Part shown: in pieces, positions 3,272 to 51,528 of the stretch
Position numbering within the stretch: the stretch's first letter is position 1
Layout: each line of letters starts with the position of its first letter
Assembly: GCA_900299145.1 (NCBI GenBank)
Contig: OMIN01000139.1
Coordinates: forward strand, 1-54,425
DNA length: 54,425 nucleotides
Origin: Betaproteobacteria bacterium
GTDB taxonomy: Bacteria > Pseudomonadota > Gammaproteobacteria > Burkholderiales > SG8-41
Reading direction: 5' to 3'
Program-made: the position numbers and the translations under genes
Notes under the pieces: generated by a model
What the model was told of the DNA's origin: nothing
Seen by the model: only the letters and a program-made list of their open reading frames with translations
Database searches by the model: none

Positions 3272-4000
3272 TCAGTCCGAAACTTGCGGTGTACTGATTT
3301 CGACGATATGCATATCGGCGAAGGCGTGCGGCCCGTAACGGAAAATGGTGCGTCCGGTTTCCGCGGCCAGCACGGCGGGCGTTACGAGTTCCAGTTTGAC
3401 TTCCGGAATATTGATAAGGAAAGTCTGCTCGATGCGCAACCCAAGCCCATGACGTTTGAGCATCGCGCGCGATTGCTCGACCCCGACAAACGCGTTGTGA
3501 GTAATGATTGCGCGGCCGCCGGGCGCAAGATGCTGGGCCAACCCGTTGAGAAACGGATCCAGCACCTGCCGTCCGTTGCCGCCGCCGTAACTCCAGCTCG
3601 ACAAGCGGCCCTTGACCGGCGCCGGCGGCATCGGAAAATGCGGCAGGTTGGCGACAACCAAATCAAAACGGCGGCCGGCGGCGGGCAACCACATGTCGCC
3701 TTGCTCGAATTGCGAGATGGCTGTATAACCGAGTTCACTTAACAGCGTGCGGCCTTCATCGACCGCCTCGGCTTCGATGTCGACGCCGAAAAGCGATGCC
3801 GCACCCATCGCGCCAAGCGCAGCCAGTACCACGCCGCTGCCCGAACCAATTTCCATGACGTGAGCGCCACGCCATTGCGCCGCTTTCGCGTGCAGCACCT
3901 GGATCAGCGCACAGGTGTATTCGCTGGGACGCAGCGATACGCGCGGTTGGTGCGTCGAGGCCGCGATGGCAACGGCGGATGCTGGCAAGGAGGAATTCAA
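3272..4000 (-). CDS. Small class I SAM-dependent methyltransferase
   Basis: About 242 residues with a seven-strand methyltransferase fold. Motif I is VMEIGSGSGVV, followed by the acidic ribose-binding turn FGVDIEAEA. Motif IV reads NLPHF where HemK/PrmC-type enzymes have NPPY, so the class is N- or protein-methyltransferase-like but the substrate is open. The start is uncertain: no ATG lies near the domain and the frame is open back into the upstream cyclase gene. I chose the TTG at 3998-4000, which lies at the edge of an AT-rich dispersed element. The gene ends 6 bases before the ABC fusion gene, and the shared operon suggests a linked role that I cannot name. Confidence 0.7.
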   Translation of the reverse strand: MNSSLPASAVAIAASTHQPRVSLRPSEYTCALIQVLHAKAAQWRGAHVMEIGSGSGVVLAALGAMGAASLFGVDIEAEAVDEGRTLLSELGYTAISQFEQGDMWLPAAGRRFDLVVANLPHFPMPPAPVKGRLSSWSYGGGNGRQVLDPFLNGLAQHLAPGGRAIITHNAFVGVEQSRAMLKRHGLGLRIEQTFLINIPEVKLELVTPAVLAAETGRTIFRYGPHAFADMHIVEISTPQVSD

Positions 4001-4024
4001 AATATCAATAAAATCAATTAGTTG
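3999..4024. repeat. Dispersed AT-rich element, copy 1
   Basis: A-form read on the plus strand with the segment AATAAAATCAATTAGTTG, a diverged match to the core AATAAAAACAAATACTTAT. It spans the end of the adenylate cyclase gene and the probable TTG start of the methyltransferase. Confidence 0.6.
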
Positions 4025-6119
4025 CAGGAGCGGCGACTCGCGGCGCGGAAAGTTTTGCGACCATGGCTTGCGCCACCGGGTCGTCGGGATATTCCGTGAG
4101 AATGTCCCGATAGCGTTGCAACGCCAACACCGGATTACCGGTGTTGAGCGCCATGTAGGCCTCGCGCGTAAGTTTGGCCAAACGCACTGCGGCAGGGCTT
4201 GGCTCCAGTTCAGGCCCGGCGCCCACTGCGCCCAACAATTCATAGATGGCGATTCTGCGGCGGCGCCCCTTGACTGCGGCGTCGTCTATGGGCCGCATAC
4301 ACAGTCTTTCTCCGGCTTCCTTGTACACGGCATGGCTCACGCAAATCAGCGTGCCATATTCCTTGTTGGTGCCCTCGAGCCGCGCGGCGACGTTGACGCC
4401 GTCGCCCATGGCGGTGTAGCTGATGCGCTCCTCGGATCCGATGTTGCCCACCAGCACGGCGTCGCTGTGGATGCCGATGCGCACGTTGAGCGGCTTTAAT
4501 TCCTGTGCCACCCATTTCGCGTTGAGCGCCTTCATGCCGTGCTGGATGCGCAATGCGGCGACGCAAGCGCGCCAGGCATGATCCTCCATTTGTGCCGGCG
4601 CACCCCAGAACGCCATCACCCCATCGCCGATGAATTTGTCGACGGTGCCACGTTCCTGGTTAATGGATCTTGTGACCAATTCCAGATAGGCCGAAACACG
4701 CACCAGCAACTCCTGCGACGGCAGCTCTTCGGACAGCGTCGAAAATGATTCCAGATCCGAAAAAAAGATGGTCAGAAAGCGGCTGTGTCCGCCGATGGCA
4801 AGTGCCTCGTTGGTGTCAAGCAACTGGCGCACCAGCCCCACCGGCACGAACGCCGCGAACGAGCGCACCAGCGAATCCAGTGTGTGTATGGCGTTGGATA
4901 GCACCGATACTTCGCGGATTGGCGAATCCAGCATGGGCATGGATTTGCCGGCGCCCAATTCCTGAATGCGGGTGACGCGCGTGGCGAGCTGTTCCAGCGG
5001 CGAAGAAATCACTTTTGACAATATGTAAATCACCAGCAATTGCAGGCTGATCGCGATAAGGCCGAACAGCAGCAACATGCGATTCTGCTGGTCGAATGCC
5101 TGGGTGAAATCCTCCAGCGGCGTGATCACGAAAAGCTGCCATTTCTTGCCGAATTCCGGCGGCAGGGTGGAGAGCCCGGCGACGTACTGTTTGTCGGCAT
5201 GCTCGAAAGTGTAAAGTTTTTCGCCTTGGGTTTCATGCGAGCCGAAGGCTATCGTCGTCAGCTTGCCTCCGACGGAAGTGATGTGCTGCAATTCAACTTT
5301 GCCGTTGACGTCTGTGTAGGTCTTGGAACGTTCCGAATTGGCGATGACGCGGCCCTGATGATCGAGCACATAACTGAGGGAACCGGGGCTGATCTTGCGT
5401 TTTGACAAATATTCGGACAGCACGTCCAGCGTAATATCAGCGGCAGCCACGCCGATCAAGTTACCGTTGCGGTAAATCGGCGCGGCAATGGTAAAGCCAA
5501 CCAGCCCCAGTGCCGCGAACACATCGGGATCTGACACCATCGGCCGTCCTTCCGCCACCGCCGCGCGATACCACGGGCGTTGCCGGGGGTCGTAGCGCGT
5601 TGCCTCCTCAGACTGACCGAGTTCCTTTTCGCCGGTATCAAGAAAGCGGTAGCGATCGATCACGGGCGGCTTTTTCGCCGCTTCGATCCAGCGGTAGGCA
5701 AAGCGGCTGCCCGGCGGCGGCGGCTTGTCCTGAATTTTGACTGCGGGATCGATGCGCCGCACCTGGCGAAACGACGCATCCTCCAGCCCGACGTAGGCGC
5801 TGGTAATGGTATCGCTGTGGCTGGTGATGCCGAACAGGTACCGCATGGCGCGATTATCTGAATAGAACTCAGGCTGTTCCCGGCCGACCGCCGCCGCGCT
5901 TGCCACCATCGATTTGATCGGCGCGAATACGTTCTGGATATTGGCGATGGCTTCGACGCGAAAGCGTTCGGCCAGCTCATACGCGTTGGCACGCGCGATG
6001 CGTTCGTTCGACACATAATTCACGATGACCATGGCCGCGAACACCGGCAGTGTCAGCAACACGAACATCGTCAGCATGCTCGGCCGCAGCCGCAGCTTCC
6101 TGGCCAGACGGAACTTCAT
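4014..6119 (-). CDS. Membrane adenylate cyclase with extracytoplasmic Cache sensor
   Basis: Predicted class III nucleotidyl cyclase of 701 residues that makes a cyclic nucleotide in response to an external signal. One membrane helix near residues 14-32 is followed by a double-Cache-like periplasmic domain to about residue 330, a second helix (LLLFGLIAISLQLLVIYIL), a HAMP-like linker and the cyclase domain at about 440-610. Both metal-binding aspartates appear present, in IFFSDLESFS and DKFIGDGVMAFWG. The Lys of DKFIGDG and the Asp of TAMGDGVNVAARLE fit ATP rather than GTP as substrate. A short helical, TPR-like C-terminal tail follows. The ATG at 6117-6119 gives a positively charged start before the first helix. 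The gene stands alone or leads into the methyltransferase operon; its 3' end runs into an AT-rich element. Confidence 0.88.
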   Translation of the reverse strand: MKFRLARKLRLRPSMLTMFVLLTLPVFAAMVIVNYVSNERIARANAYELAERFRVEAIANIQNVFAPIKSMVASAAAVGREQPEFYSDNRAMRYLFGITSHSDTITSAYVGLEDASFRQVRRIDPAVKIQDKPPPPGSRFAYRWIEAAKKPPVIDRYRFLDTGEKELGQSEEATRYDPRQRPWYRAAVAEGRPMVSDPDVFAALGLVGFTIAAPIYRNGNLIGVAAADITLDVLSEYLSKRKISPGSLSYVLDHQGRVIANSERSKTYTDVNGKVELQHITSVGGKLTTIAFGSHETQGEKLYTFEHADKQYVAGLSTLPPEFGKKWQLFVITPLEDFTQAFDQQNRMLLLFGLIAISLQLLVIYILSKVISSPLEQLATRVTRIQELGAGKSMPMLDSPIREVSVLSNAIHTLDSLVRSFAAFVPVGLVRQLLDTNEALAIGGHSRFLTIFFSDLESFSTLSEELPSQELLVRVSAYLELVTRSINQERGTVDKFIGDGVMAFWGAPAQMEDHAWRACVAALRIQHGMKALNAKWVAQELKPLNVRIGIHSDAVLVGNIGSEERISYTAMGDGVNVAARLEGTNKEYGTLICVSHAVYKEAGERLCMRPIDDAAVKGRRRRIAIYELLGAVGAGPELEPSPAAVRLAKLTREAYMALNTGNPVLALQRYRDILTEYPDDPVAQAMVAKLSAPRVAAPATN

Positions 6120-7485: not shown

Positions 7486-7513
7486 AAAAATAGTTAATAA
7501 AACAGATACTTAC
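7486..7513. repeat. Dispersed AT-rich element, copy 2
   Basis: Lies between ntrY and ntrX. Plus strand carries TTAATAAAACAGATACTTAC, close to the core AATAAAAACAAATACTTAT. It is the main content of the 70-base gap. Confidence 0.75.
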
Positions 7514-7527
7514 AATTGTCCGAGAAT

Positions 7528-9753
7528 TCACGCCGCCGACCTCGCGCGGACATGGCGCAAGTTCGACGCCGGCACCGGCAACGTAATCGACACGCACGCG
7601 CCGTGCGGCTCGACGTTGCCGATGGCGACGCTGCCGCCGTGTTCCTCGATAATTTTTTTCACAATCACCAGCCCCAGCCCCGTGCCTTTCTTCTTGGTGG
7701 TGACGTAGGGCTCGAACGCGCGTTTCATCAGGTGTTCCGGAAAGCCGCTGCCGTTGTCGGTGACGCTAAAGCGAATCACCCCACCGCCCGCTTCGCTCGT
7801 TACAGTAATGCGCGGCGCGGGCGTATCACCCAAGGCATCCTGCGCGTTTTGCAGCAGATTATGTATGACCTGCCGCAATTGTGCCGCGTCGCCGACAATG
7901 TGCGGCAGGGTCTCGGCGAGGTCCAGCTTGATGCTGCCCCCCAGCGATTCGTAAAGCGTCAGCACCTCATGCACCAGCGAATTCAGATCCAGTTCGCGCA
8001 TCGCCGGATCGGGCGCGCGCGCGTACTGGCTGAAGGCATCGACCATGCGTTTGAGTGAGGCCACCTGATTGACTATGGTTTACGTGGATCGGCCCAGCAT
8101 GGCGCCGTCCGTTTCGTCGAGCTTGGGCGCAAGCTTCATTTGCAGCCGTTCAGCGGAGAGCTGTATCGGCGTCAGCGGGTTTTTGATTTCATGCGCCAGA
8201 CGCCGCGCGACTTCGGCCCATGCCGCGTCGCGTTGTGCCTGTAACACGTCGGTAACGTCGTCGAACACCACCACAAATCCGCCCGAGCGCTCGGTGCTCG
8301 CCGGCAGCGGCTTGCCGCGCAATAACAGATGCTGCTCGCCTGTGGCGACCGTACGCACCACTTGTCGCTCCCACTCCGAGCCGGCAGCTTCGGCAAAGCC
8401 CGCCTGAATTTCTACCCCAAGCACATGCAGCGACTGTTCCAAGGCGCCCCATTCCGCCGTCTTGCGATTTAAGAGCGCCTTTTCATCCAGCGCCAGTATT
8501 GCCGACGCACTGGGGTTGGCGCTTTGCAATGTCAACGCCTCGTCGAATACCAGTACGCCCGCCGACAGGTGCGCGAGAATGCTTTCGAGATACGCCTTGG
8601 ACTTGTTGACTTCGGCCTGATTGCGTTCGGCCTCGCGGCGCGCGTCTTCGAGCTGATGCGTCATGCTGTTGAAGGACTGCGAAAGCTGGCCCAGTTCGTC
8701 GCTGCTCGCCACTGCCGCACGGCGGCTAAAGTCGCCTTGTGCCACCGCGCGCGTGCCTTCCACCAGCGCATTCAGCGGGGCGGAAAATTCCTCCGACAGA
8801 TAAATGGCCGCGGCAAGCGCCGCCAGCAGCGACAGCAGCAGCGTCAGCGTCAGCGTGATGCCGTAGAGCCGCTTGAGCCCAAGCCGGCCCACCACCAGCT
8901 CCTGATACTCGCGATAGCCTGATTGGACGGTCTCGGCGTTTTGCGCCAGACGCGCCGGCACGTAATAAATCACTTGTAAGGCACGCGACTCTTCCGCGAG
9001 CGACAGCAGGTTGACCGGCGTCACCACGCGCAACAGCAAGCCGCGTTCGGGGGTGGCGTCCGCCACGGCATAGGTTTGTTGCGAACGCAGCAGCCGCAAC
9101 GCCTCGGCGGGCGGCGCCTCGGGCACCACGCTCACGCGCTCGCTGCCCGCCGTGGCGATTACGCGCCCGCGAGCCGTGTAGAGCGTAGCCTCGTGCGCGC
9201 CTGCTTGTTCGCGAAGCGTGTTAAGCGCCACGCCATGCTCGGCGGCGGGGCGGCTGGCAAGTTGCAGGGCCATCGCACCCGCCTTGCTCTTGAGGTCCTT
9301 GAGCATGTTGTCGAGCACGTCCTGACTCAGTTTCAGGCCGCCTTCCAGCGCCTTGTCCACTTTCACGTCGAACCATGATTCAATGCTGCGCCCCAAATAC
9401 TGCATCGACATGCCGTAAAGCAACACGCCTGGCACCACGGCCATCATTGACAGCAGCAGTACAAGCCTGAGTGTAAGCCGGGCGCCGAACACGCCGGTTT
9501 TAAGACGCCGCCGCAACATCAGCAACTGGCGCACGACCAGCACGGCGAGCAGCACGGCGATCACGCCGTTGACGATTAGCAGCGCCTGAAAATGCCTCGC
9601 GAAGAGTGCAGTATTGGCACTGGCGGTCGCGAGCAGGAATAAGCCTACTGCGCTCAAGCCCACCAGTAGTACGATGGCGTATCGTCGCCGCGTGGATGGT
9701 GTAGCGTTCCCCAGCGGGGTGGCTGAGGCCGGCGTCACGGGTTGACCGTCCAT
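7528..9753 (-). pseudogene. ntrY: NtrY-type sensor kinase interrupted by an in-frame TAA
   Basis: Nitrogen-regulation-type membrane histidine kinase, intact in architecture but split by one stop codon. The first part (8080-9753) has several membrane helices, a periplasmic segment, HAMP (SAPLNALVEGTRAVAQGDFSRR), a PAS-like region and the phosphoacceptor box ARRLAHEIKNPLTPIQLSAERL. It ends MLGRST. The stop at 8080-8082 is TAA where homologues carry Gln (RSTQTIVNQVASLKRM). The same frame then resumes with TIVNQVASLKRMVDAF and carries the ATPase domain: N-box HNLLQNAQDA, G1 VTDNGSGFP and G2 KKGTGLGLVIV. A CAA-to-TAA transition explains it. A GTG at 8062-8064 could restart the second part. Real nonsense mutation, read-through and sequencing error cannot be separated here. 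It overlaps the upstream DUF4390 gene by 19 bases. Confidence 0.85.
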
Positions 9754-10337: not shown

Positions 10338-11658
10338 CGTGAACAGCATCTGGCAGTATTTGTCCTGCGAGTTGTTCCAGTTGTCCCACCCGTTCCGCCC
10401 GTTCCACCTGTTCCTGTTCCGCGGTTGTGCCTGCAGGCGTGGCGACGGCTGGTGTCTGCAACCGGGCATCGGCATGGCGCGCCAAGAAGCGCTCGACCTG
10501 CTCTTGATTTTCTTCCCGGAACACCGAACACGTTACGTACAGGAATTTACCACCAGCGGCGAGCAGCCGCCACAGCGCATCGATGATCGACTGCTGGCGC
10601 GCGGCGAATCGTGCGATATCGGATGCGCGCCGCGTCCACTTGATATCGGGATGACGGCGCGTGACGCCCGAAGCGCTGCACGGCACGTCGGCGAGTATTC
10701 GATCAAATGGTTGGCCATCCCACCATGCGCGCGGATCGGCTGCGTCGCCGCATAGGACGTGGGCCGCAAGGCCCAGCCGCACGAGATTGGCGTTGACGCG
10801 CGCAAGCCGGGCGGCATCGTGATCGAGCGCGGTGAGCGCAACGTCTGCAAGTTCCAGGACATGCGCTGTCTTGCCGCCCGGCGCGGCGCAGGCATCGAGC
10901 ACGCGCATGCCGTCTTGCGCATCAAGCAACAGCGCCGCTCGCTGGGCCGAGGCATCCTGTACCGACACCAACCCTTCGTCAAAACCCGGCAGACGTTGCA
11001 CTGGAACGGGCTTGTCGAGCACGATGGCGTGGCTTTCCAGCGCGGTGGCGGCAATGCCTTCGGCGGCGAGGCGGGCAAGATACATTTCGCGCGTAACGCG
11101 CCGCTTATTAATGCGCAGGGTGAGCGGCGCGTGGCGGTTGCCCGCCAGCAACAGCTCATCAAAGCACGCCGGGTATTGTGCCCGGATTTTGTTGATCCAC
11201 CACGCTGGAAACGAGTAGCGCGCTTCGTCGCCCGCGACGGGCGATGCGGCCAGCGCCTGCATTTCGGCCTTGCGCCTCAAGAAATTGCGAAGCACGCCGT
11301 TGACCAGCCCCTTGGCGGCCACAGCGGGTAGCGCCACGCAGGCGCGCACGGCGTGATCCACCACGGCGTGCGGCGCGGCCTTGGTGTGCAGCAGTTGATA
11401 CAGCGCGACGCGCAGCAACTGGCGCACATTTTCATCGCGCAGCGGCCGCGCGAGCAGTGGCGTGAGCACGGCGTCGATGGTGCCACGGTGACGCAACACG
11501 CCATAGCACAGGTCCTGCACCAACGCGCGCTGGTTGGCGGGCTGGTCTGCGGCCTCGCGCGGCAACTGCTGCCACGCGACGGTGAGCTCGTTATCGAGAT
11601 TGCGTCCGGCGGCCACGCGTTCGAGCACGCCAGCGGCCACGCATTGCGCTTCGTGCAT
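10303..11658 (-). CDS. rsmB: 16S rRNA m5C967 methyltransferase
   Basis: Methylates C967 of 16S rRNA using S-adenosylmethionine. The 451-residue protein has an N-terminal NusB-like RNA-binding domain (MHEAQCVAAGVLERVAAG to about residue 140, with LRNFLRR) and a Rossmann methyltransferase domain: DACAAPGGKTAHVLEL, the catalytic motif DVPCSASGVTRRHPDIKW and the second cysteine in YVTCSVFREEN. The ATG at 11656-11658 overlaps the fmt stop as ATGA. The open frame continues far upstream of this, but that part is a shadow of fmt. Near the C-terminus, about 25 residues rich in EQ, ER and VG come from 9-base repeats and appear to be an insertion relative to the usual family C-terminus. Confidence 0.95.
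   Translation of the reverse strand: MHEAQCVAAGVLERVAAGRNLDNELTVAWQQLPREAADQPANQRALVQDLCYGVLRHRGTIDAVLTPLLARPLRDENVRQLLRVALYQLLHTKAAPHAVVDHAVRACVALPAVAAKGLVNGVLRNFLRRKAEMQALAASPVAGDEARYSFPAWWINKIRAQYPACFDELLLAGNRHAPLTLRINKRRVTREMYLARLAAEGIAATALESHAIVLDKPVPVQRLPGFDEGLVSVQDASAQRAALLLDAQDGMRVLDACAAPGGKTAHVLELADVALTALDHDAARLARVNANLVRLGLAAHVLCGDAADPRAWWDGQPFDRILADVPCSASGVTRRHPDIKWTRRASDIARFAARQQSIIDALWRLLAAGGKFLYVTCSVFREENQEQVERFLARHADARLQTPAVATPAGTTAEQEQVERAERVGQLEQLAGQILPDAVHDGFYYALLQKA
10370..10420 (-). repeat. In-frame 9-base minisatellite inside rsmB
   Basis: Degenerate tandem nonamers of the type GTG-GAA-CGG, GCG-GAA-CGG, GTG-GGA-CAA and CTG-GAA-CAA, read on the coding strand. They encode the EQEQVERAERVGQLEQLAG stretch near the RsmB C-terminus, which has no counterpart in the usual family sequence. 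Confidence 0.7.
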
Positions 11659-12605
11659 CAGGCGGGCGGCTCGCCGCCGGGTGTGCTGAAACACGCGCCG
11701 CGCGGGATCGGGAAGCCCTTCAACAGCGTGGCCGTGGGCAGCCGCTTGCCGCCCGCGCGTTGCAGTTCCAGCACCTTGAGCGCGCCCTGGCCGCAGGCGA
11801 TGATGAGTTCGCCCGGTGCGGAATTGCATACTGTGCCCGGTTCCAGCGGCTGATGGTCGGTAACTGCCGCGCGCCACAGCTTGATGCGTTCGCCGTTGAG
11901 CGTGGCTGCGGCGCCGGGAAACGGGTTGTAGGCGCGCACGCGGCGGCTGATTTCGATGGCGGATTCTTCCCAATCGATCAGCGCTTCCTCTTTGGTGAGC
12001 TTGGCGGCATAGGTGGCGCGCACGGCGTCTTGTGCCACGGGCGAGGGCAGGCTGCGCAGGGTTTCGACGATCATTTCGCCACCCAGCGCCGCCAGCCGGT
12101 CGTGCAGTTCGCCAGCGGTTTCAGTTTCGCCGATGGGAATGGCGCGCCGGGCTAACATCGCGCCGGTGTCGAGCCCTGCGTCCATTTGCATAATGGTGAT
12201 GCCGGTTTCAGCGTCGCCAGCCAGAATCGCGCGCTGGATCGGGGCCGCGCCGCGCCACCGCGGCAGCAGGGAGGCATGAATATTGAGGCAGCCCAGCCGC
12301 GGCAGTGCCAGAATCGCCGGCGGCAAAATCAGCCCGTAGGCGGCGACAATCATGGCTTCGGCGCCGTTGTTAACAGCGGCGGCAATCAGGTCACGCGCGG
12401 CATCGGTCTTGAGTGTGAGTGGTTGCTCAACCGTAAGTATATGTTTTTGTGCGAGAATTTTTACATCGGACGCCACCAGCTTCAAACCGCGTCCGGCGGG
12501 CCGGTCGGGCTGAGTAAGCACTAACACGACTTCGTGACCAGCATCGATCAGTGCTTGTAGCGCGGTGGCGGCAAAGGCGGGTGTGCCGGCGAATAGTAGC
12601 CGCAA
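11658..12605 (-). CDS. fmt: Methionyl-tRNA formyltransferase
   Basis: Formylates the initiator Met-tRNA using 10-formyltetrahydrofolate. The 315-residue length is normal. Signatures are MRLLFAGTPAFAA at the start, AAYGLILPPAILALPRLGCLNIHASLLPRWRGAAPIQRAI with the catalytic Asn-His pair, the Asp in IMQMDAGLDTG, and a C-terminal OB-fold domain (GERIKLWRAAV onward). It starts with TTG (12603-12605), which I accept because the N-terminus matches the family exactly and AAGGA lies 8 bases upstream. That leader is also copy 3 of the AT-rich element. Inside the gene, around codons for DVKILAQKHILTV, there is a second, unusually AT-rich stretch resembling the same element. Operon: def, fmt, rsmB. Confidence 0.96.
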   Translation of the reverse strand: MRLLFAGTPAFAATALQALIDAGHEVVLVLTQPDRPAGRGLKLVASDVKILAQKHILTVEQPLTLKTDAARDLIAAAVNNGAEAMIVAAYGLILPPAILALPRLGCLNIHASLLPRWRGAAPIQRAILAGDAETGITIMQMDAGLDTGAMLARRAIPIGETETAGELHDRLAALGGEMIVETLRSLPSPVAQDAVRATYAAKLTKEEALIDWEESAIEISRRVRAYNPFPGAAATLNGERIKLWRAAVTDHQPLEPGTVCNSAPGELIIACGQGALKVLELQRAGGKRLPTATLLKGFPIPRGACFSTPGGEPPA

Positions 12606-12634
12606 AATAAATCCTTATAAAACAAATAGTTATG
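12604..12634. repeat. Dispersed AT-rich element, copy 3
   Basis: Plus strand holds TTATAAAACAAATAGTTATG. It forms the leader of fmt, and the AAGGA ribosome binding site is embedded in it on the minus strand. Confidence 0.75.
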
Positions 12635-14564: not shown

Positions 14565-15662
14565 GTGCCCGTTGCACCACTGGCTCCTGACCTTGCCGCA
14601 TGGCTGCGCCTGTCGCTGACCAACGGCCTTAACGGTGAGGCATTTCGCAAGCTGCTGGTGACTTTCGGCGGGCCGGAGCAAATTCTTGGCGCGAGCCGCA
14701 CCGCACTTACCGCTGTTGTCAGCGGCAAACTCGCCGATGCGATATTGGATGGCGATCTTTATGGCGATCTGGCGGCGGTCGAAGCGTGGCTTGCTGACAG
14801 CAATAATCATGTAGTCACGCTCGCGGACGGCGAATACCCGCAGGCGTTGCTGCAAACACCTGATCCGCCGCCGCTGATTTATGTCAAAGGCCGGCTCGAT
14901 CTGCTGAACGCGCCGTCGCTGGCCGTGGTCGGCAGCCGCAACGCCACGGCACAAGGCAAGCTCACCGCCGAATCGTTTTCCACAGCGCTATCCAACGCGG
15001 GGCTCGCCATCGTCAGCGGCATGGCGCTCGGCATCGACGCCGCCGCGCATCAGGGCGGGCTGGCCGGTCTTTCATCGACTGTCGCGATAGTCGGCACCGG
15101 TTTGGACAAAGTCTATCCCGCGCGTAACCGCGATCTTGCGCATGCCATTGCCGGCAGGGGCGCGATCGTTTCCGAATTTGCGCTCGGTACGCCGCCAGTC
15201 GCCGCCAACTTCCCGCGCCGCAACCGCCTCATCAGCGGCATGACACGCGGTTGTCTGGTGGTGGAAGCGGCGCTCTCCAGCGGCTCGCTGATCACTGCCC
15301 GCCTGTCCAACGAACTGGGAAAGGATGTTTTCGCCATTCCCGGCTCAATCCATTCCACCTTGTCCAAAGGCTGTCACGTACTGATTAAACAGGGCGCCAA
15401 GCTGGTGGACGACGCCGCGGATATCTTGAGCGAGCTGCGGCTGCCCCCGCTCTCTGCGGGACATGCAGGGGCCACCAAAGCCGATCCGGCGCCTTCAAGC
15501 CACCCGCTGCTTGCCCACATGGCGTTCGATCCGTGCGACATCGACACGTTGGCGGGCCGCGCGGGCCTGCCGGTGCACGAGGTTAGTGCTGCCTTGATTC
15601 AGCTCGAACTGGAAGGCGCGGTCGCCGGCCTGCCCGGCGGGCTTTGGCAGCGGGTGGCTTAG
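14565..15662 (+). CDS. dprA: DNA-processing protein DprA
   Basis: Loads RecA on single-stranded DNA taken up during natural transformation. Over 365 residues it has an N-terminal SAM-like helical part, the Rossmann core with VVGSRNATAQGK, IVSGMALGIDAAAH, GLDKVYPARNRDLA, SEFALGTPPVAANFPRRNRLISGM and VVEAALSSGSLITA, and a C-terminal winged-helix domain (PCDIDTLAGRAGLPVHEVSAALIQLELEGAVAGLPGGLW). The start is GTG at 14565, in line with the expected N-terminus. In many betaproteobacteria a smg (DUF494) gene follows dprA, but here the next gene is topB and I see no smg in the 222-base gap. Confidence 0.96.
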   Translation: MPVAPLAPDLAAWLRLSLTNGLNGEAFRKLLVTFGGPEQILGASRTALTAVVSGKLADAILDGDLYGDLAAVEAWLADSNNHVVTLADGEYPQALLQTPDPPPLIYVKGRLDLLNAPSLAVVGSRNATAQGKLTAESFSTALSNAGLAIVSGMALGIDAAAHQGGLAGLSSTVAIVGTGLDKVYPARNRDLAHAIAGRGAIVSEFALGTPPVAANFPRRNRLISGMTRGCLVVEAALSSGSLITARLSNELGKDVFAIPGSIHSTLSKGCHVLIKQGAKLVDDAADILSELRLPPLSAGHAGATKADPAPSSHPLLAHMAFDPCDIDTLAGRAGLPVHEVSAALIQLELEGAVAGLPGGLWQRVA

Positions 15663-15668
15663 AAAAAT

Positions 15669-15697
15669 ATAAGTATTTGTTTTTATTTATATTTTTG
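15669..15697. repeat. Dispersed AT-rich element, copy 4
   Basis: Seven bases after dprA. The minus strand contains the exact 19-base core AATAAAAACAAATACTTAT. The remaining ~190 bases up to topB hold no recognised gene. Confidence 0.9.
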
Positions 15698-15884
15698 TAA
15701 ATATCGGCGGACGAATTTTGCCTGCCTGTGACAAACTGGCTTGCGTTCGCGCCTGATTTGTTCTTATCATCTGCGCCTCTTTTTGCACCGCAATGTGCAG
15801 TGCAACATGCGATGAGCGGCGTTTTAGCCGGATTTCTGTCGCATATTTACCCGCATTTTCCCGTAAGGGCGCAGCCGAAAAAAC

Positions 15885-19701: not shown

Positions 19702-19702
19702 T

Positions 19703-19729
19703 ATAAGTATTTGTTTTTATTGAATATTT
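19703..19729. repeat. Dispersed AT-rich element, copy 5
   Basis: Directly after the ornithine cyclodeaminase-like gene, between convergent genes. Minus strand has the exact 19-base core AATAAAAACAAATACTTAT. Confidence 0.9.
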
Positions 19730-19762
19730 CTTCGGATTGCCTGTCGCCAGCCATTGCGAATT

Positions 19763-21572: not shown

Positions 21573-21601
21573 AAAATAATTGAATAAAAACAAATACTTA
21601 T
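21573..21601. repeat. Dispersed AT-rich element, copy 6
   Basis: In the divergent gap between Bug receptor 1 and the aminotransferase fusion. The plus strand contains the exact 19-base core AATAAAAACAAATACTTAT. Confidence 0.9.
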
Positions 21602-21661
21602 GAATTACCTGTGAAAAATTCAACTTGTCAAAATAATTTTGTCATGTTAGTCTTCGCAGCC

Positions 21662-23179
21662 ATGAATTGCGCAGAACGTCTTGTAGAACTTTTCGGCAGC
21701 CAGGCCGAAGTGGCGCGCCGCTTCAGCCTCGACCGTGCGGTGGTCAATAACTGGGTCAAGTCCGGTTACGTGCCCGCGCGCTGGGCGATGGAAGTGGAGC
21801 AGGTGACCAACGGTGAAATTTCCGCTGCTGACATTCTGAACGACGCCACCGCGCGCAAGCCGATCCGGTTGAAATCCCGCCCGGACGGCGAAAATCTTTA
21901 CATACCCCCCACTGGGAGCGACACCATGAGCAACGAATTTGCACCCGCCAAGCGCATCAGTTCATTCCCCCCGCCGCAGCGCACGCTGCTCGGCCCCGGC
22001 CCGACGGAAATCCACCCGCGCGTGCTGACCACCATGAGCCAGCCGGCGATTGGCTACCTCGACCCGGTTTTCGTCGACATGATGGAGGAGCTGAAAGCGC
22101 TGCTGCGTTACACGTATCAAACCAAAAACCCGCTGACGTTCCCGGTGTCCGGCCCCGGCTCGGTGGGCATGGAGTTTTGCTTTGTGAACATGGTCGCCCC
22201 TGGCGACAAAGTCATCGTGTGCCGCAATGGCGTATTCGGCGGCCGCATGATCGAAAACGTCGAGCGCTGTGGCGCCACGCCGATCATCGTCGAAGACAAA
22301 TGGGGCGAGCCGGCCGATCCGCAAAAGCTGGAAGATGCGTTAAAGGCCAATCCGGACGCGCGCCTCGTTGCCTTCGTGCATGCCGAGACTTCCACGGGCG
22401 TGCTGTCGGATGCGAAAACGCTGGTGGATATTGCCCACAAGCATAACGCGCTTACCATCGTTGATTGCGTGACCTCGCTCGGCGGCTGCGAAGTGCGCGT
22501 CGACGACTGGAAATTCGACGCGGTGTATTCCGCCAGCCAGAAATGCCTGTCGTGCACGCCGGGCCTGTCGCCGGTGTCGATCAGCGAGCGCGTGATTGAT
22601 TTCGTAAAAGAGCGCAAGGACAAAATCAAGTCGTGGTTCATGGACATGAACCTGCTGCTCGGCTACTGGGGCGCCACCACGCGCACCTATCACCATACTG
22701 CGCCGACAAACTCGCTGTTCGGTTTGCACGAAGCGCTGCTGCTGATCCGCGAGGAAGGCATCGAAAACTGCTGGGCGCGCCACAAGCGCCACCACACCGC
22801 GCTGAAGGCGGGCCTCGAAGCCATGGGCCTGAAATTCCTCGTCGATCCGAAATATCAGGTACCGCAAATGAACGCGGTGCTGTGCCCGGAAAAAGTCAAT
22901 GAAGTCGAAGTGCGCAAGCGTTTGCTCAATGAATTCGGCCTTGAAATCGGCGCGGGTCTGGGCCCCCTGGCCGGCAAAATCTGGCGCTTCGGTTTGATGG
23001 GCTATTCGTGCCGGCCGGACAACGTGATGCTGTGTTTGTCCGCGCTGGGTTCCGTGCTCGAAGACATGGGCTACCCCGTGCACGTGGGCGACGCCGAATC
23101 GGCGGCGCATGCGGCTTATGCCTCGATGCACACCACCGAAGCTGCCGCGAAACGGCGCAAGACTGCCAAGGCAGCGTAA
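21662..23179 (+). CDS. Helix-turn-helix domain fused to alanine/serine-glyoxylate-type aminotransferase
   Basis: One continuous frame of 505 residues. Residues 1-62 (MNCAERLVELFGSQAEVARR onward, with DRAVVNNWVKSGYVPARWAMEVEQ) are a YdaS/Cro-like helix-turn-helix. From about residue 89 a class V PLP aminotransferase follows: LLGPGPTEIHPRVL, FPVSGPGSVGMEF, the Asp in IVDCVTSLGG and the PLP-binding Lys in YSASQKCLSC. It ends in a basic AAAKRRKTAKAA tail. The ATG at 21926, preceded by GGGAG with 7-base spacing, would give the aminotransferase alone. The ATG at 21662 has no good ribosome binding site, but the HTH part is too well conserved to be untranslated. Either a true fusion or two starts from one frame is possible. 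Serine- or alanine-glyoxylate exchange is the likely chemistry. Confidence 0.85.
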   Translation: MNCAERLVELFGSQAEVARRFSLDRAVVNNWVKSGYVPARWAMEVEQVTNGEISAADILNDATARKPIRLKSRPDGENLYIPPTGSDTMSNEFAPAKRISSFPPPQRTLLGPGPTEIHPRVLTTMSQPAIGYLDPVFVDMMEELKALLRYTYQTKNPLTFPVSGPGSVGMEFCFVNMVAPGDKVIVCRNGVFGGRMIENVERCGATPIIVEDKWGEPADPQKLEDALKANPDARLVAFVHAETSTGVLSDAKTLVDIAHKHNALTIVDCVTSLGGCEVRVDDWKFDAVYSASQKCLSCTPGLSPVSISERVIDFVKERKDKIKSWFMDMNLLLGYWGATTRTYHHTAPTNSLFGLHEALLLIREEGIENCWARHKRHHTALKAGLEAMGLKFLVDPKYQVPQMNAVLCPEKVNEVEVRKRLLNEFGLEIGAGLGPLAGKIWRFGLMGYSCRPDNVMLCLSALGSVLEDMGYPVHVGDAESAAHAAYASMHTTEAAAKRRKTAKAA

Positions 23180-24906: not shown

Positions 24907-24969
24907 GCGGCGCTCCCGAAGAAGTTACGCGCGCATGGTACCAGTTTGCGGGGCCTGCCCGCCAGTTGC

Positions 24970-24998
24970 ATAAGTATTTGTTTTTATTAAATAATTTA
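24970..24998. repeat. Dispersed AT-rich element, copy 7
   Basis: Between metF and mgtE, both on the minus strand. The minus strand contains the exact 19-base core AATAAAAACAAATACTTAT, so its orientation to transcription is opposite to that of most copies. Confidence 0.9.
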
Positions 24999-27443: not shown

Positions 27444-27471
27444 AAAATATTATTTAAAAACAGTAACTTGT
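27444..27471. repeat. Dispersed AT-rich element, copy 8
   Basis: In the divergent gap between ahcY and Bug receptor 2. The plus strand has TTTAAAAACAGTAACTTGTG, a diverged copy that abuts the -35 box of the ahcY promoter. Confidence 0.6.
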
Positions 27472-27521
27472 GACAAAATCACGACTTCACCATTTTTGCC
27501 TTTTAATTCAAAGGAGTTTTT

Positions 27522-29942: not shown

Positions 29943-30062
29943 GGTGTTCTCCCTTGCGTGGATGCCAACAGTATATCGGCTGTCACGAATAAAAGGGTGC
30001 CTGCGGCGGGGCCTTTGCGGTGTGCGGGTGGCGACTAGGCGAGGGATTGCGACGTGGTTATA

Positions 30063-30090
30063 AAAATTTGTTTAAAATCAGATAGTTATA
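30063..30090. repeat. Dispersed AT-rich element, copy 9
   Basis: Just after Bug receptor 3 (minus strand), before the hydrolase gene. Plus strand has TTTAAAATCAGATAGTTATA. Confidence 0.7.
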
Positions 30091-34205: not shown

Positions 34206-34716
34206 CACTGTGGAAATCCGTGCTTTGCGTGACGATGAAGTGACTGCGTTGAACGCGCTGTCGGCTGAAATCTGGCGCGCGCACTATCCGGGGATAATCA
34301 GCGTGGCGCAGATAGAATCCATGCTGGCGGAACGGTACAATGAAGCCGTGATTCGTGAAGAACTGCGGCGGCGCGATATCTGGTGGGACGTGCTGCTGCT
34401 GAATGGACAAATGACCGGCTACACCTCGTACTTCATCACCAGCGTGCCCGGCACGGTCAAAATCGACAAGCTGTATTTGCATCCGCGCGCGCACCGTAAG
34501 GGGTATGGCGGCCTTCTGATGGATCATGTGGCACGGCGCATGGCGGCTCAAGGCTGCCAACGGTTGATGCTGGCGGTGAACCGGCGCAACAGAACTGCCA
34601 TCGCCGCGTATCGCAAACACGGGTTTGTGATTACCAATACTTCACTCAAGAAAATTGCTGGCGGGTTCTGGATGGATGACTATATTATGGTGAGAGAGGC
34701 AGGGCGTGCGGCTTAA
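34189..34716 (+). CDS. GNAT family N-acetyltransferase
   Basis: A 175-residue acetyl-CoA-dependent acetyltransferase. The A motif is [28 protein letters not shown], with the acyl-CoA pyrophosphate loop RKGYGG, and the B motif [19 protein letters not shown] follows. Substrate is unknown. It overlaps the preceding acyltransferase by 17 bases and the following dapF by 11 bases, so it belongs to the lpxL-dapF-xerC operon. ATG at 34189 with GGGGAAAGGAG upstream, a strong ribosome binding site inside the previous gene. Confidence 0.92.
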
Positions 34717-35545
34717 GTTCACCAAAATGCACGGGCTGGGCAATGACTTCGTGGTGTTCGATGCCACGACCACGCCTTTGCAATTGACGCAGGCCCAACT
34801 GCGCGCGCTGGCCGACCGGCATTTTGGCGTAGGCTGCGATCAGATTCTGATGGTGGAAAAGTCACGCTCGGCAGACACGGATTTCTACTACCGCATCTTT
34901 AATGCTGACGGCGGCGAGGTCGAACAGTGCGGCAACGGTGCACGCTGTTTTGTGCGCTTTGTGCACGACAAAAAGTTGACGGCCAAAACGCGTATTCGCG
35001 TCGGCACTTTGGGTGGCGTGATCGAGCCGCAACTGGAGACCGACGGCCAAGTTACCGTGGATATGGGCGCGCCGGTGTTTGAGCTGGCGAAGATCCCGTT
35101 TGACGTGCCAGAGCAGGCGCTCACCTACGACTTGCTTGTCGATAAAAAATGCATAAAAATCAATAGCTTATCCATGGGAAATCCGCACGCCGTGCAAGTG
35201 GTGGCGGATGCCGACATGGCGCCAGTGGCGCAGGAAGGCCCGATGATCGAGGCGCATCCACGGTTTCCCAAACGCGTCAACGCGGGCTTTATGCAAATCA
35301 TCAACCGCACGCACATCCGGCTGCGCGTGTACGAACGCGGCGCGGGCGAAACACTGGCCTGCGGCACCGGCGCTTGCGCGGCGGTGGTGGCAGGCGTACA
35401 ACGCGGGTTGCTGGACAGCCGCGTGCGTGTCACCACGCGCGGCGGCGATCTCATCATCGCGGGGGCGGGCGCTGGCCAGCCAGTGCTGATGACGGGCCCG
35501 GCGGTCACTGTGTTTGAAGGCGAAGTTACATTACAGGAAGCATAA
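34706..35545 (+). CDS. dapF: Diaminopimelate epimerase
   Basis: Converts LL- to meso-diaminopimelate for peptidoglycan and lysine synthesis. The 279-residue protein has the paired catalytic cysteines in [15 protein letters not shown] and [16 protein letters not shown], plus the starting [15 protein letters not shown]. The start is GTG at 34706, overlapping the GNAT gene. In the middle, codons for [17 protein letters not shown] are much more AT-rich than the rest, and their bases resemble the dispersed AT-rich element, although the protein alignment keeps normal length there. Its stop overlaps the next start as TAATG. Confidence 0.97.
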
Positions 35546-37161: not shown

Positions 37162-37176
37162 GGGGTGAGGCGTAAC
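37140..37176 (+). repeat. Heptamer repeat of GTGAGGC type at the xerC end
   Basis: GCGTGAGGCGCGAGGAGTGA and GGGTGAGGCG follow each other: degenerate GTGAGG-n units. They encode the end of XerC and provide a purine-rich site just before the GTG start of the next gene. The same repeat type recurs at 52874-52956. Confidence 0.75.
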
Positions 37177-38391
37177 AGTGGCGCGGCAGGTGCTTTTCTC
37201 ACGCTAAAGCCCGGCCGCGAAAAGTCCCTCAAGCGCCGCCACCCATGGGTATTCGCGGGCGCCATCGCTCGTGTCGAGGGCAATCCGGCATCCGGCGACA
37301 CGGTGGAACTGCGTTCGTCCGATGGCGAATTTCTTGCCGTAGCGGCGTTCAGCCCTGAGTCGCAGATTCGCGCCCGCGTGTGGGATTGGAAGCCGCGCGA
37401 TATTGACGCAGCGTTTTTTGGCCAGCGCATCGCGCAGGCCGCGCGTGCACGCGAACGACTGTTGTGCGGCAACGTCACCAACAGCGCGCGCCTGATCCAC
37501 GGCGAATCCGACGGTCTACCCGGCGTGATCGCCGATTTATTCGACGACACCGTGGTGGTGCAGTTACTCGCGGCGGGCGCAGAACGCTGGCGTGATGCCA
37601 TCGCGGATGCGCTCGGCGGGTTGCCTGCACCGTTCAAAGTCGCGCGCGTGTATGAACGCTCGGATGCCGACGTGCGAGCGCTCGAAGGTTTGCCCCCCAA
37701 GAGCGGCTGGCTGCGCGGCCCGCCACTGACCAGGCCGCTGATCGTGCGGGAACACGGCTTGCAGTTCAAAGCCGAAATCGAATCCGGCCACAAAACCGGC
37801 TACTATCTCGATCAGCGCGATAACCATCTGTTTTTAAAGGATATTTCTGCTGACAAAAGCGTGCTCGACTGCTTTTGCTACAGCGGCGGCTTTGCCTTGC
37901 ACGCACTCGCGGGCGGGGCACGCAGTGTCACCGCCATCGACAGCAGCGGCCCGGCGTTGGCTGCCGCGCGCGCGAACGCGGAACTCAACAATCTCCCTGA
38001 ATACGCAAGTAAGGCCGAATGGATCGAAGCAGATGTATTCCAGCAACTACGCAAATTTCGCGATCAGGCGCGGCGGTTCGACATCATCGTACTCGATCCG
38101 CCCAAACTCGCGCCCACCGCCGCGCACGCGGAAAAGGCTGCCCGCGCCTACAAGGACGCCAACCTGCTCGCGTTCAAACTGCTCAACCCCGGCGGCGTGT
38201 TGATGACTTATTCATGTTCCGGCGGCGTATCACCCGACTTGTTCCAGAAAATCGTTGCGGGCGCGGCGCTCGATGCCGGTGTCAGCGCGCGCATTGCGGC
38301 GTGGCAACACGCGGCGGCCGATCATCCGGTGGCGCTGAATTTTCCTGAAGGGGAATATCTTAAGGGGCTGGTGTGTCACGTGGCCGCGTAA
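37165..38391 (+). CDS. RlmI-like 23S rRNA cytosine methyltransferase
   Basis: A 408-residue methyltransferase of the RlmI/YccW type. The N-terminal PUA-like domain has LKPGREKSLKRRHPWVFAGAIARVEG. A linking RNA-binding part is followed by the Rossmann domain: TGYYLDQRDNHLFLKDIS, KSVLDCFCYSGGFALHALAGGARSVTAIDSS, the catalytic region DIIVLDPPKLAPTAAHAEKAARAYKDAN and MTYSCSGGVSPDLF. RlmI makes m5C1962 in 23S rRNA; the exact position here is inferred by family. The GTG start at 37165 comes 3 bases after the xerC stop within the heptamer repeat, so the repeat likely supplies its ribosome binding site. An in-frame ATG further in does not fit the family. Confidence 0.9.
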   Translation: MRRNSGAAGAFLTLKPGREKSLKRRHPWVFAGAIARVEGNPASGDTVELRSSDGEFLAVAAFSPESQIRARVWDWKPRDIDAAFFGQRIAQAARARERLLCGNVTNSARLIHGESDGLPGVIADLFDDTVVVQLLAAGAERWRDAIADALGGLPAPFKVARVYERSDADVRALEGLPPKSGWLRGPPLTRPLIVREHGLQFKAEIESGHKTGYYLDQRDNHLFLKDISADKSVLDCFCYSGGFALHALAGGARSVTAIDSSGPALAAARANAELNNLPEYASKAEWIEADVFQQLRKFRDQARRFDIIVLDPPKLAPTAAHAEKAARAYKDANLLAFKLLNPGGVLMTYSCSGGVSPDLFQKIVAGAALDAGVSARIAAWQHAAADHPVALNFPEGEYLKGLVCHVAA

Positions 38392-41666: not shown

Positions 41667-41694
41667 AAAATATTCAATTAAAACAGATACTTAC
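41667..41694. repeat. Dispersed AT-rich element, copy 10
   Basis: Between the chemoreceptor gene and yidD. Plus strand has CAATTAAAACAGATACTTAC, close to the core. Confidence 0.8.
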
Positions 41695-41715
41695 AACGCA
41701 CAATCAAACAACGGT

Positions 41716-43404: not shown

Positions 43405-43421
43405 GATGCAATAGTCCGTGC

Positions 43422-45570: not shown

Positions 45571-45592
45571 TCGCAGAGGAAGCGGGCCTTCT

Positions 45593-45618
45593 AAAAGTTA
45601 ATAAAAATAAATGGTTAT
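45593..45618. repeat. Dispersed AT-rich element, copy 11
   Basis: After the cupin gene. Plus strand has TTAATAAAAATAAATGGTTAT, a diverged core. Confidence 0.6.
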
Positions 45619-45643
45619 GCGTTTTCGTGCTAGTGCCGCTCGT

Positions 45644-47647: not shown

Positions 47648-47920
47648 ATGCGCAATTGCATGATTACACTGCTGGCCGCCGCGTTGTTCGCTGCCACGCC
47701 GGCCCTATCGCAAGACAAGAGCAAAAAGGGCGAAAAGCCGCATACCGCAGCCGAAGAACAAAAAGACATACAGGATCATCGGGCAATGGCTGAAGCGCAC
47801 ACCGCCGCCGCGAAATGCCTGCAAAGCGGCAAGGGCGAGAAGGTTTGCCATGACCAACTCGCCAAGGATTGCAAGGGGCTGGGCATCGGCAAGCTCTGCG
47901 GCATGAAGCACCATCACTAA
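47648..47920 (+). CDS. Small exported Cys/His protein
   Basis: A 90-residue protein with a signal peptide (MRNCMITLLAAALFAATPALSQ). The mature part is hydrophilic, with four Cys (AKCLQSGKGEKVCHDQLAKDCKGLGIGKLCGMKHHH) and a final run of His. The spacing of Cys and the HHH end suggest a metal-binding periplasmic protein or a disulfide-bonded carrier. I do not recognise a named family. The AAGGAGG site 6 bases before the ATG is strong, and the gene lies 45 bases after the permease, so it belongs to the putative zinc operon. Confidence 0.82.
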   Translation: MRNCMITLLAAALFAATPALSQDKSKKGEKPHTAAEEQKDIQDHRAMAEAHTAAAKCLQSGKGEKVCHDQLAKDCKGLGIGKLCGMKHHH

Positions 47921-47945
47921 AAATACAATAAAATCAAATAGTTAT
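47919..47945. repeat. Dispersed AT-rich element, copy 12
   Basis: Begins within the stop codon of the small Cys/His gene. The plus strand has CAATAAAATCAAATAGTTAT. Confidence 0.8.
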
Positions 47946-47997
47946 CGACATGGTGGCAATTGGAGTAGTATAGTTTCCCTGCCAAGCAGTTGATACA

Positions 47998-48618: not shown

Positions 48619-48652
48619 GCCATCGCGGAATTCCACTCAGCCAGACTTTCTC

Positions 48653-48716
48653 AACCGCTCAACCGATCAACCGATCAACCGCTCAACCGCTCAACCGCTC
48701 AGTCGCTAAGTCGCAC
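48653..48716 (+). repeat. Tandem octamer repeat
   Basis: AACCGCTC and the variant AACCGATC repeat six times in register (48653-48700), followed by two decayed units AGTCGCTA and AGTCGCAC. It fills the gap between the DUF3299 gene and the His-rich gene. Tandem, so not CRISPR. Confidence 0.9.
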
Positions 48717-48777
48717 AGGTTCCACGCCTGTTGAGCAGCGGCGCTGATTTGGCGCCACTATCGACCATTCATTGATC

Positions 48778-49179: not shown

Positions 49180-49180
49180 A

Positions 49181-49201
49181 AACCGGCGCTTTGCGCCGGT
49201 T
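49181..49201 (+). terminator. Hairpin after the His-rich gene
   Basis: AACCGGCGC and GCGCCGGTT pair exactly over 9 bases around a 3-base loop, right after the stop. No T-run follows, so termination is uncertain. Confidence 0.5.
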
Positions 49202-49279
49202 CATAAAACACAGCAATCCCGAATTCGCGGCGAGCACACCCGTGCCGCCGCACCGTGTTTTTTTTCAGAGGAGAATTTC

Positions 49280-51394: not shown

Positions 51395-51499
51395 CGCGGA
51401 AGGCCCCATCGGCATGTGTAGCGCAGGCGAGTTTGTCGTGCCGTGCAATGCGAACGATAATCTCGCCTCGCTCCGCGCATGTCAGCGGCTAGACATATC

Positions 51500-51528
51500 A
51501 TAAGTATTTGTTTTAATTGATTTTTATG
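51500..51528. repeat. Dispersed AT-rich element, copy 13
   Basis: Ends on the ATG of tonB. The minus strand has CAATTAAAACAAATACTTAT, matching the core at its whole right part. It occupies the place where a ribosome binding site would be expected. Confidence 0.85.

Follow-up and report, generated by a model that had tools for sequence, protein, structure and literature searches.

The AT-rich elements in the window (the whole stretch of 54,425 nucleotides analysed) belong to a genome-wide family. Tentatively, we favour reading the element as a DNA-uptake or self-recognition sequence shaped like an IHF site, in an uncultured, naturally transformable Burkholderiales lineage. The element is known from assemblies of uncultured organisms, and uptake and IHF binding are both putative functions.

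Copies in the window and in the genome

All 13 copies listed in the initial annotation were real: each matched a genome-derived matrix (scores 28–42) within two bases of its listed start. A pattern search allowing up to three mismatches found 17 core matches in the window, compared with 1.0 ± 0.95 (largest 4) in 100 dinucleotide-preserving shuffles. The organism's own genome contained 892 near-exact cores vs. 1 for the reversed control. The matrix found 325 sites in 1.09 Mb vs. 9 with the reversed control, extrapolating to approximately 1,600 copies per genome; the hundreds of copies that the initial annotation had named as a check were present. Chance AT richness was rejected because reversed controls and shuffles fell far below the observed counts.

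The consensus was AAAAWWWTcAATWAAAWCARATASTTAYR, comprising an A-tract followed by WA(T/A)CAR-N4-TTR. The motif was approximately 29 bp long with a further 5 bp or so of weak AT preference, correcting an earlier length of about 28 bases. The AT island stopped abruptly at the motif edge and no palindrome was seen by eye. As with DUS and USS, the element was a short word overrepresented genome-wide on both strands. Six exact element strings were not found in the literature searched, and a plasmid search with one 121-bp stretch of the window returned weak matches only, mostly AT-rich or coding.

Positions are given with the strand of the A-rich form. Copy 1 (3998–4026, plus, score 33.8) overlapped the 3′ end of a dCache/cyclase-domain gene (4014–6119, minus; identified by Pfam), and copy 2 (7486–7514, plus, 30.6) was directly past the stop of the gene at 7528–8046 (minus). 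Copy 3 (12606–12634, plus, 31.5) was past the stop of the peptide deformylase gene (def), a junction at which 5 of 11 relatives had, within 40 bp, a site in the same orientation. Copy 4 (15668–15696, minus, 41.8) was directly past the stop of the natural-transformation gene dprA (14565–15662, plus; PF02481, 245 bits). A weak match at 15877, over the topB start, may be coding similarity only. Copy 5 (19702–19730, minus, 40.5) was past an ornithine cyclodeaminase-family gene and had a counterpart at the same place in one of seven relatives. Copies 6 (21574–21602, plus, 41.3) and 8 (27444–27472, plus, 32.6) were between divergent genes. Copy 7 (24969–24997, minus, 41.8) was between MgtE-family and MTHFR-family genes, copy 9 (30062–30090, plus, 36.4) past a TctC gene and copy 10 (41667–41695, plus, 40.9) past a chemotaxis receptor gene, all identified by Pfam. 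The remaining listed copies were 11 (45591–45619, plus, 28.4), 12 (47918–47946, plus, 36.1) and 13 (51499–51527, minus, 39.5).

Four copies had been overlooked: 195–223 (minus, 36.5), 12432–12460 (minus, 21.5), 35144–35172 (plus, 33.3) and 37819–37847 (minus, 28.8). The last three were within gene calls (11658–12605, 34706–35545 and 37165–38391, respectively), and at the place of the 12432 copy the orthologues of 9 of 11 relatives carried a match of at least 17.7.

Placement and orientation

Sites were preferentially located past stop codons. Ninety-six sites were within 30 nt of 3′ ends, vs. 77 ± 4.6 under a same-slot null and 28 ± 5 under an all-slot null; gene starts were also enriched in the all-slot null (53 vs. 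32 ± 5). In the 1.09 Mb, 39 of 325 sites lay over 60 bp deep in well-scored genes, against none of the 9 sites of the reversed control, while 99 of 325 were outside strict intergenic slots, a difference due in part to the rough caller behind the gene calls. The initial description of the element as almost strictly intergenic was right as to enrichment and slightly too strong in view of the 39 sites deep in genes.

Of the sites near 3′ ends, 46 had the T-rich form and 58 the A-rich form in the direction of transcription, so the trend for the T-rich form to follow transcription, seen in the window, did not hold outside it. Element orientation is not tied to transcription. Consecutive sites had the same orientation 156 times and opposite orientations 146 times. 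On this basis a polar mark of the KOPS or Chi type was rejected, and the segregation mark proposed earlier is disfavoured because local orientation is random.

Orthologues without a site aligned through its place gap-free; in-gene sites therefore arose through substitution, not insertion. Among genomes whose dprA end could be read, a site was found at the dprA stop junction in all 12 of the same genus and in G018 from a second genus, making 13 of 26 across the family. The 12 relative loci all had the site as well, but these counts are not independent of the family-genome counts, since loci L009–L018, L042 and L044 are seemingly assemblies of some of the same genomes (same junction DNA). In most relatives the dprA stop codon was inside the site, and the register of site to stop was the same in most same-genus genomes. 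Two further checks suggested earlier, for enrichment between genes and for conservation in position, thus came out positive.

Spacing

Sites were evenly spaced. The coefficient of variation (CV) of the gaps in the genome sample was 0.581, compared with 0.904 ± 0.047 simulated (lowest of 500 simulations, 0.782). Site pairs less than 1 kb apart occurred at 0.25 of expectation, and copies avoided each other below 2 kb. To our knowledge, such mutual avoidance is no trait of USS. Gap CVs were also low in G006 (0.56 vs. 0.80 ± 0.07), G018 (0.49 vs. 0.79 ± 0.11) and G019 (0.54 vs. 0.77 ± 0.12, within about 2 sd only). In the window, 16 hand-picked sites from 195 to 51499 gave a mean gap of 3.4 kb and a CV of 0.27, a list that took the 12432/12606 pair as one and omitted 15877; the unpicked genome sample gave 0.58. 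Non-intergenic sites fell where intergenic sites were further apart (mean gap 8.7 kb vs. a size-biased expectation of 6.4 ± 0.4 kb). The even spacing of the copies had been overlooked in the initial annotation.

Evenness as a typical USS trait is disputed. PMC1939737 cites Karlin's view of evenly spaced USS and itself describes them as less even than compaction predicts. PMC7811141 describes an uneven distribution in which many USS are within 100 bp of another (23% of one class), whereas the present copies keep apart.

Distribution and species dialects

The element was limited to four genera within a single Burkholderiales family. The 74 family genomes ranged from zero to hundreds of copies, and none of the 243 genomes from the rest of the order exceeded nine matches. 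Copy number varied tenfold within the organism's own genus. G009 was the sole element-free genome among 14 of the same genus, with 9 matches vs. 63–720 in the other 13.

Base shifts were found among G000, G006, G018, G019 and G031 (16 sites only in G031), amounting to species or lineage dialects of the kind known for DUS and USS. The fourth core base was 67% A in G000 and 89% T in G006. The T of WATCAR was present in 89% of sites in G006, 73% in G019, 33% in G000 and 23% in G018. The N4 stretch read ATA(C/G) in G000, where each of its first three bases reached 82%, and WWA(C) in G018; it showed strong bias in G000, G006 and G019 but less in G018 and G031, and was loose in g8.

Transformation genes

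Transformation machinery was gauged by DprA and ComEC. G009, rated 97% complete, had no DprA match, dprA being absent between the LysM gene and topB; its ComEC match was a 27-bit fragment (cut-off 190), and ihfA and ihfB were kept. It also had a lower GC content (0.474 in 174 kb) and a smaller genome. Among the 38 element-bearing family genomes, DprA was matched in all 38 (in G294 as two pieces below cut-off) and ComEC was above cut-off in 35. In G295 comEC was split over two frames, and this genome had the fewest sites of the 21 g7 genomes (55; next 77). G283 (g7, 91% complete) carried 193 sites although it lacked a ComEC match, and G002 carried 364 although its ComEC match was interrupted by an in-frame stop. 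G009 and G295 are thus in line with loss of the tag alongside the machinery; G283 and G002 are contrary and speak against a tight link between element and competence. Support for a link to competence comes from one full loss and one partial case. In the element-free genera g2–g5 and g9, ComEC and DprA were mostly present.

Resemblance to IHF sites

The initial annotation knew of no described element with this sequence. That holds in part: the exact strings were absent from the literature searched, but in layout the element matches the published IHF site, with an A-tract on the left and WATCARNNNNTTR on the right (PMC9519438). The left-flank A-tract, CAR and TTR were all present in register, the A-tract register having been compared with lambda attP, and the T of WATCAR varied by species. 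With the fourth core base and the R position masked from the matrix, the former still emerged as A/T and the latter as mostly R. When an N4-masked matrix was run over a 501-bp stretch of lambda attP, its best match fell at the presumed H2 IHF site (2 of 300 shuffles did as well); the presumed H′ site was in the same register as the element but scored only 6.4 and ranked seventh (the record annotates int sites only). At a threshold of 18 the masked matrix gave 5 matches (reversed 1) in 200 kb of E. coli K-12 vs. 240 (16) in 767 kb here.

The organism's own genome encodes IhfA and IhfB, both clearly related to the E. coli chains; these are its only two PF00216 proteins. Both PF00216 proteins were read in G000, G006, G018, G019, G020 and G025; in other element-bearing genomes one or none was read (G010 no match; G026 and G031 one match), and the matches of G021 and G032 were read in part. 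HU was read in five genomes, all without the element. HU loss as the single cause was rejected, as it is not one-to-one with element presence. Sigma-54 promoters numbered 2–3 per sample, too few for an informative comparison.

Uptake, architecture and other explanations

As an uptake sequence, the element would act like the DUS of Neisseriaceae or the USS of Pasteurellaceae, with an unrelated word resembling a strong IHF site. DNA released by kin would carry one tag per approximately 3.3 kb, a cell-surface receptor would prefer tagged, easily bent DNA, ComEC would pass a single strand inwards and DprA would hand it to RecA. Biased uptake and recombination would then keep tags uniform within a species and spread them along the chromosome, genes included. 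The uptake function, a receptor for it and the cause of the resemblance to an IHF site are all three inferred. Copy number, dialects, even spacing, lack of strand preference and substitution origin support the uptake reading, as do the joint loss of element, DprA and ComEC in one species, the DprA and ComEC matches of the element-bearing genomes and the low site count of G295. The element-free state of g2–g5 and g9 despite mostly present ComEC and DprA speaks against it, as do G283 and G002, the lower GC and smaller genome of G009 and the mutual avoidance of copies. On this reading, the resemblance to the IHF consensus would have to reflect either mechanical convergence or coincidence. A bolder version, which we consider unlikely, is a third independent uptake code whose word is an IHF bending site, at once self-tag and evenly spaced bend point, with bending a part of self-recognition.

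Among known systems, the USS of H. influenzae and other Pasteurellaceae share with the element a high copy number (from hundreds up to about 2,200), dialects, a long motif (as much as 32 nt) with AT-rich parts thought to aid kinking, and an origin by point mutation (PMC7811141, PMC12616744 and PMC5031613). Their word is unrelated, whereas the present element is wholly AT-rich and IHF-like. PMC1939737 places 65% of H. influenzae USS in ORFs, compared with approximately 12% deep in genes here. DUS are likewise genome-wide with dialects conserved within species (PMC3630211), and their hosts, the Neisseriaceae, are also a betaproteobacterial family; they differ in a length of up to about 13 nt, an unrelated word and a known receptor, ComP (PMC12616744 and PMC5031613).

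Binding by a nucleoid protein, another role proposed initially, survives as a candidate. It is possible, though we favour the uptake reading over it, that the element forms a chromosome-wide array of strong IHF sites every 3 kb or so, mostly intergenic, serving as a main nucleoid organiser in a lineage without HU. IHF bends DNA by approximately 160 degrees in E. coli (PMC9820253), and the layout, the masked-matrix results, the loose N4 of g8, the presence of IhfA and IhfB with no third PF00216 protein and the absence of the element from the five genomes with HU all suit such an array, as does even spacing. Against it, the element-free relatives that were read, among them G009, have very similar IhfA and IhfB chains. 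The fourth core base, mostly A in G000, differs between species whose IHF is nearly the same. The IHF consensus has no N4 preference, unlike the species-biased N4 of the element, which also differs from IHF sites in number and even spacing. Element-free G009, G014, G016 and G024, in which all PF00216 matches were read, likewise have no HU. The near-absence of matches in the rest of the order and the tenfold variation within the organism's own genus count against the array too. REP/BIME-type repeats of E. coli are also between genes, near 3′ ends and tied to IHF, but they are palindromic and longer than the present element.

It is improbable that some other, non-IHF sequence-specific chromosome protein binds the element in an architectural or replication role: the same spacing, placement and dialect data fit, but the IHF-like anatomy and the joint loss with transformation genes would both be coincidences, and random local orientation disfavours polar marks. 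An RNA-level signal past stops, such as a T-rich 3′ end, terminator or processing element, is very improbable. It would account for the 3′-end enrichment and for the dprA stop codon inside the site in relatives, but both orientations occur near 3′ ends, starts are enriched too, and sites occur within genes and in divergent regions; the mRNA boundary signal suggested earlier is disfavoured because there is no strand preference. We give even less credence to the idea that the copies are what is left of a small mobile element. Their large number and patchy occurrence would fit, but the AT island ends sharply at the motif, spacing is even and the register to the dprA stop is constant in most same-genus genomes. 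The earlier suggestion of such remnants is disfavoured because orthologues without the site align gap-free.

Significance

The DNA-uptake mark, one of several roles proposed earlier, survives and is now the favoured candidate. Either an uptake mark or an IHF array would be unusual. If the element is architectural instead, the chromosome would carry bend points defined by sequence and set at even distances, an arrangement of which no report was found in the literature searched on intergenic, downstream or regularly spaced IHF sites. If the uptake code is true, it would be a third case and would show repeated evolution of the trait; how such codes arise and are lost could then be traced through 74 genomes of one family. 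Either way, a selected word of approximately 30 bp that alters protein sequence to persist is a strong, testable signal.

Motif and copy number

The conserved stretch of the element, derived from 120 sites in 767 kb, spans about 29 bp (AAAAWWWTcAATWAAAWCARATASTTAYR), with a slight AT preference across about 5 further bp. GC content at the element drops from about 0.60 to about 0.2 across some 40 bp. The 13 copies reported in the initial annotation were each read directly at their positions, and all 13 were matched by a genome-learned matrix. The window contained 17 core matches (at most 3 mismatches) vs 1.0 expected from shuffles (maximum in 100 shuffles, 4). Across the window's own genome (G000; 5.51 Mb in 158 contigs), the 15-base core (at most 1 mismatch) gave 456 forward and 436 reverse matches; the reversed core gave 1 match on one strand and 0 on the other. 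An iterated matrix found 227 sites at a score of at least 22 (reversed matrix, 2). A larger set of 23 contigs, totaling 1,093,551 bp (some 20% of the genome length), held the hundreds of copies asked for as support, with 325 sites at a score of at least 20 (reversed matrix, 9); scaling gives about 1,600 copies genome-wide.

Placement, orientation, and spacing

All placement counts rely on rough gene calls. In a first sample of 230 sites, 126 lay between co-oriented genes, 32 between convergent and 28 between divergent genes, 38 inside gene calls, and six at ends. For slot analysis, 164 of 236 sites (masked matrix, score at least 18) were assigned to intergenic slots and 72 were not assignable. 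Relative to sites scattered randomly over all slots, tandem regions were enriched (110 sites vs 88 ± 6) and divergent regions depleted (25 vs 43 ± 6), with excesses within 30 nt of stops (96 vs 28 ± 5) and starts (53 vs 32 ± 5). The excess near both gene ends arose because sites occupy short slots: under a same-slot null, stops were enriched (96 vs 77 ± 4.6 within 30 nt) and starts were not (53 vs 57.6 ± 4.3).

The trend for the T-rich form to read with transcription disappeared in the larger counts, as both orientations occurred in tandem regions (50 along, 76 against) and close to 3′ ends (46 along, 58 opposite). This independence from transcription speaks against an RNA signal, which was disfavored.

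The mean intersite gap in the 1,093,551-bp sample was 3.26 kb with a CV of 0.581. The null kept per-contig numbers of intergenic and other sites, allowing at most one intergenic site per slot and the others anywhere; its CV was 0.904 ± 0.047 (minimum 0.782 across 500 runs). Site pairs less than 1 kb apart occurred at 0.25 of the null and those 1–2 kb apart at 0.64. Since close pairs were depleted and distances above 2 kb showed no clear periodicity, the pattern is one of mutual avoidance rather than a strict ruler. Among 99 non-intergenic sites, the 71 testable ones occupied long gaps between intergenic sites (mean 8.7 kb vs a size-biased expectation of 6.4 ± 0.4 kb) and lay nearer the gap middle (0.319 vs 0.25 if uniform). 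Spacing departed from the null in the same direction in genomes G006 and G018 and, more weakly, in G019.

Sites inside genes and at gene junctions

The element had been called almost strictly intergenic. Intergenic regions do hold most sites, but 39 of 325 lay more than 60 bp within well-scored genes (reversed-matrix hits, 0 of 9). Orthologues for 11 of the 39 were found in 1.62 Mb of relatives' DNA (122 loci). For several, a site-free orthologue aligned gap-free with differing amino acids there, as for C15:95313 against L148 (86% identity) and C97:32178 against five loci, and closer relatives kept the site (C97:32178 in L143, C15:41008 in L155, C12:63267 in L162). In-gene sites thus originate and persist through substitution, at the expense of changes in the protein sequence. 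The orthologue alignment for one site, C33:51181, contained several gaps. At the site within window gene 11658–12605, nine of 11 relatives scored at least 17.7. The product of a further window gene (21644–23179) is a class V aminotransferase that carries a YdaS/Cro-like DNA-binding domain at its N terminus.

The positional conservation sought between relatives was seen at the dprA stop codon, which a site overlapped or adjoined in all 12 same-genus (g1) genomes whose dprA end was readable, as well as in G018 (genus g6). Another 13 genomes of the family, including five from the element-bearing genera g7 and g8, lacked a site at the dprA end; two loci were unreadable. Other junctions show site turnover: a same-orientation site was found in five of 11 relatives at the def junction and in the same place in one of seven at the ornithine cyclodeaminase-like gene, and loci L010 and L014 carry a site after a response-regulator gene where the window has none. 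A promoter-like block upstream of topB (15741–15783) is conserved also in element-free relatives, e.g., L019 and L020.

Distribution among genomes

In a first survey of 60 genomes, including G000, core counts were 116–892 in g1 (G009, 6), 314 in g6, 62–188 in g7, 15–36 in g8, and at most 16 per genome elsewhere. A pattern designed from the IHF idea, open at the four bases (N4) between the CAR and TTR halves (AAAWWWTNAAWWAAAWCARNNNNTTR), gave 679 matches in G006 vs 147 with the first pattern, which had missed that genome's dialect; reversed, it gave 0–1 per genome. In an order-wide sample of 250 genomes, the seven of the same family (f1) carried 87–720 matches and the other 243 at most nine. 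Across the 74 family genomes examined, the element was borne by 13 of 14 in g1 (63–720), the single g6 genome, all 21 in g7 (55–249), and all three in g8 (27–64); g2, g3, g4, g5, and g9 had 0–6 matches per genome. All 42 named relatives are metagenome assemblies by title, and the lake-like sample names of several suggest a freshwater habitat. Loci L015–L018, L042, and L044 come from public metagenome assemblies of this lineage that carry the title Bordetella parapertussis, a label that looks wrong; their topB is 86–88% identical to the window's.

Transformation genes

DprA was matched in all 38 element-bearing genomes (in G294 as two pieces, both under the cut-off), and ComEC exceeded the cut-off in 35. 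The comEC gene was split across two contigs in G026 and lay in two overlapping frames on one contig in G295 (L259, 4388–6809), which had the fewest elements of the 21 g7 genomes (55). Against this, ComEC was not found in G283, which nevertheless has 193 elements, and the G002 match (C60:5969–7798), in a genome with 364 elements, holds one in-frame stop, either a sequencing error or real.

G009 was the sole g1 genome without the element (nine matches; masked matrix in 174 kb, 8 vs 5 reversed at a score of at least 18 and 3 vs 3 at 20). It had no DprA match and only a fragment match to ComEC (27 bits). It nevertheless retains topB (82% identity) and neighboring genes, although the interval from the LysM gene to topB holds no dprA. 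IhfA and IhfB are retained as well. A third, diverged IhfB-like protein is encoded in this genome (C113:578–844; L124). The link between element and transformation genes is suggestive, not proven.

Uptake sequence or IHF-site array

The element resembles the published IHF site, for which the consensus is WATCARNNNNTTR; most of the strongest IHF sites carry a left-hand A-tract (PMC9519438). The masked fourth core base was W in 328 of 328 G000 sites, and the masked R position was R in 91%. In 501 bp of lambda attP, the masked matrix matched best at what we take to be the H2 IHF site. G000 has just two PF00216 proteins, IhfA and IhfB, both matching the E. coli IHF chains. The IhfA arm reads LR(I/L/V)KPQRPGRNP in 12 g1 sequences (G000 L071 and 11 others) and LRDKNQRPGRNP in E. 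coli, a hydrophobic residue replacing a charged one. HU, whose absence is unusual for Burkholderiales, was apparently absent from the element-bearing genomes read and from some element-free ones within the family.

That the element is an array of IHF sites is possible but somewhat less likely: its anatomy and the mutual avoidance of sites argue for this, whereas the N4 bias does not fit, the fourth core base shifts between species, copy number spreads widely while IHF is nearly constant, and the element is nearly absent from the rest of the order. A DNA-uptake sequence serving self-recognition is the reading we tentatively put first, at slightly less than even confidence. High copy number and placement are explained by either reading, as in principle is the even spacing. 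Uptake is favored by the dialects, the narrow distribution, and the loss of the element together with transformation genes. Pasteurellaceae uptake motifs are similarly long, at up to 32 nt, and include AT-rich segments believed to aid kinking (PMC12616744, PMC7811141), and by this analogy an uptake word of bendable, IHF-like shape is plausible.
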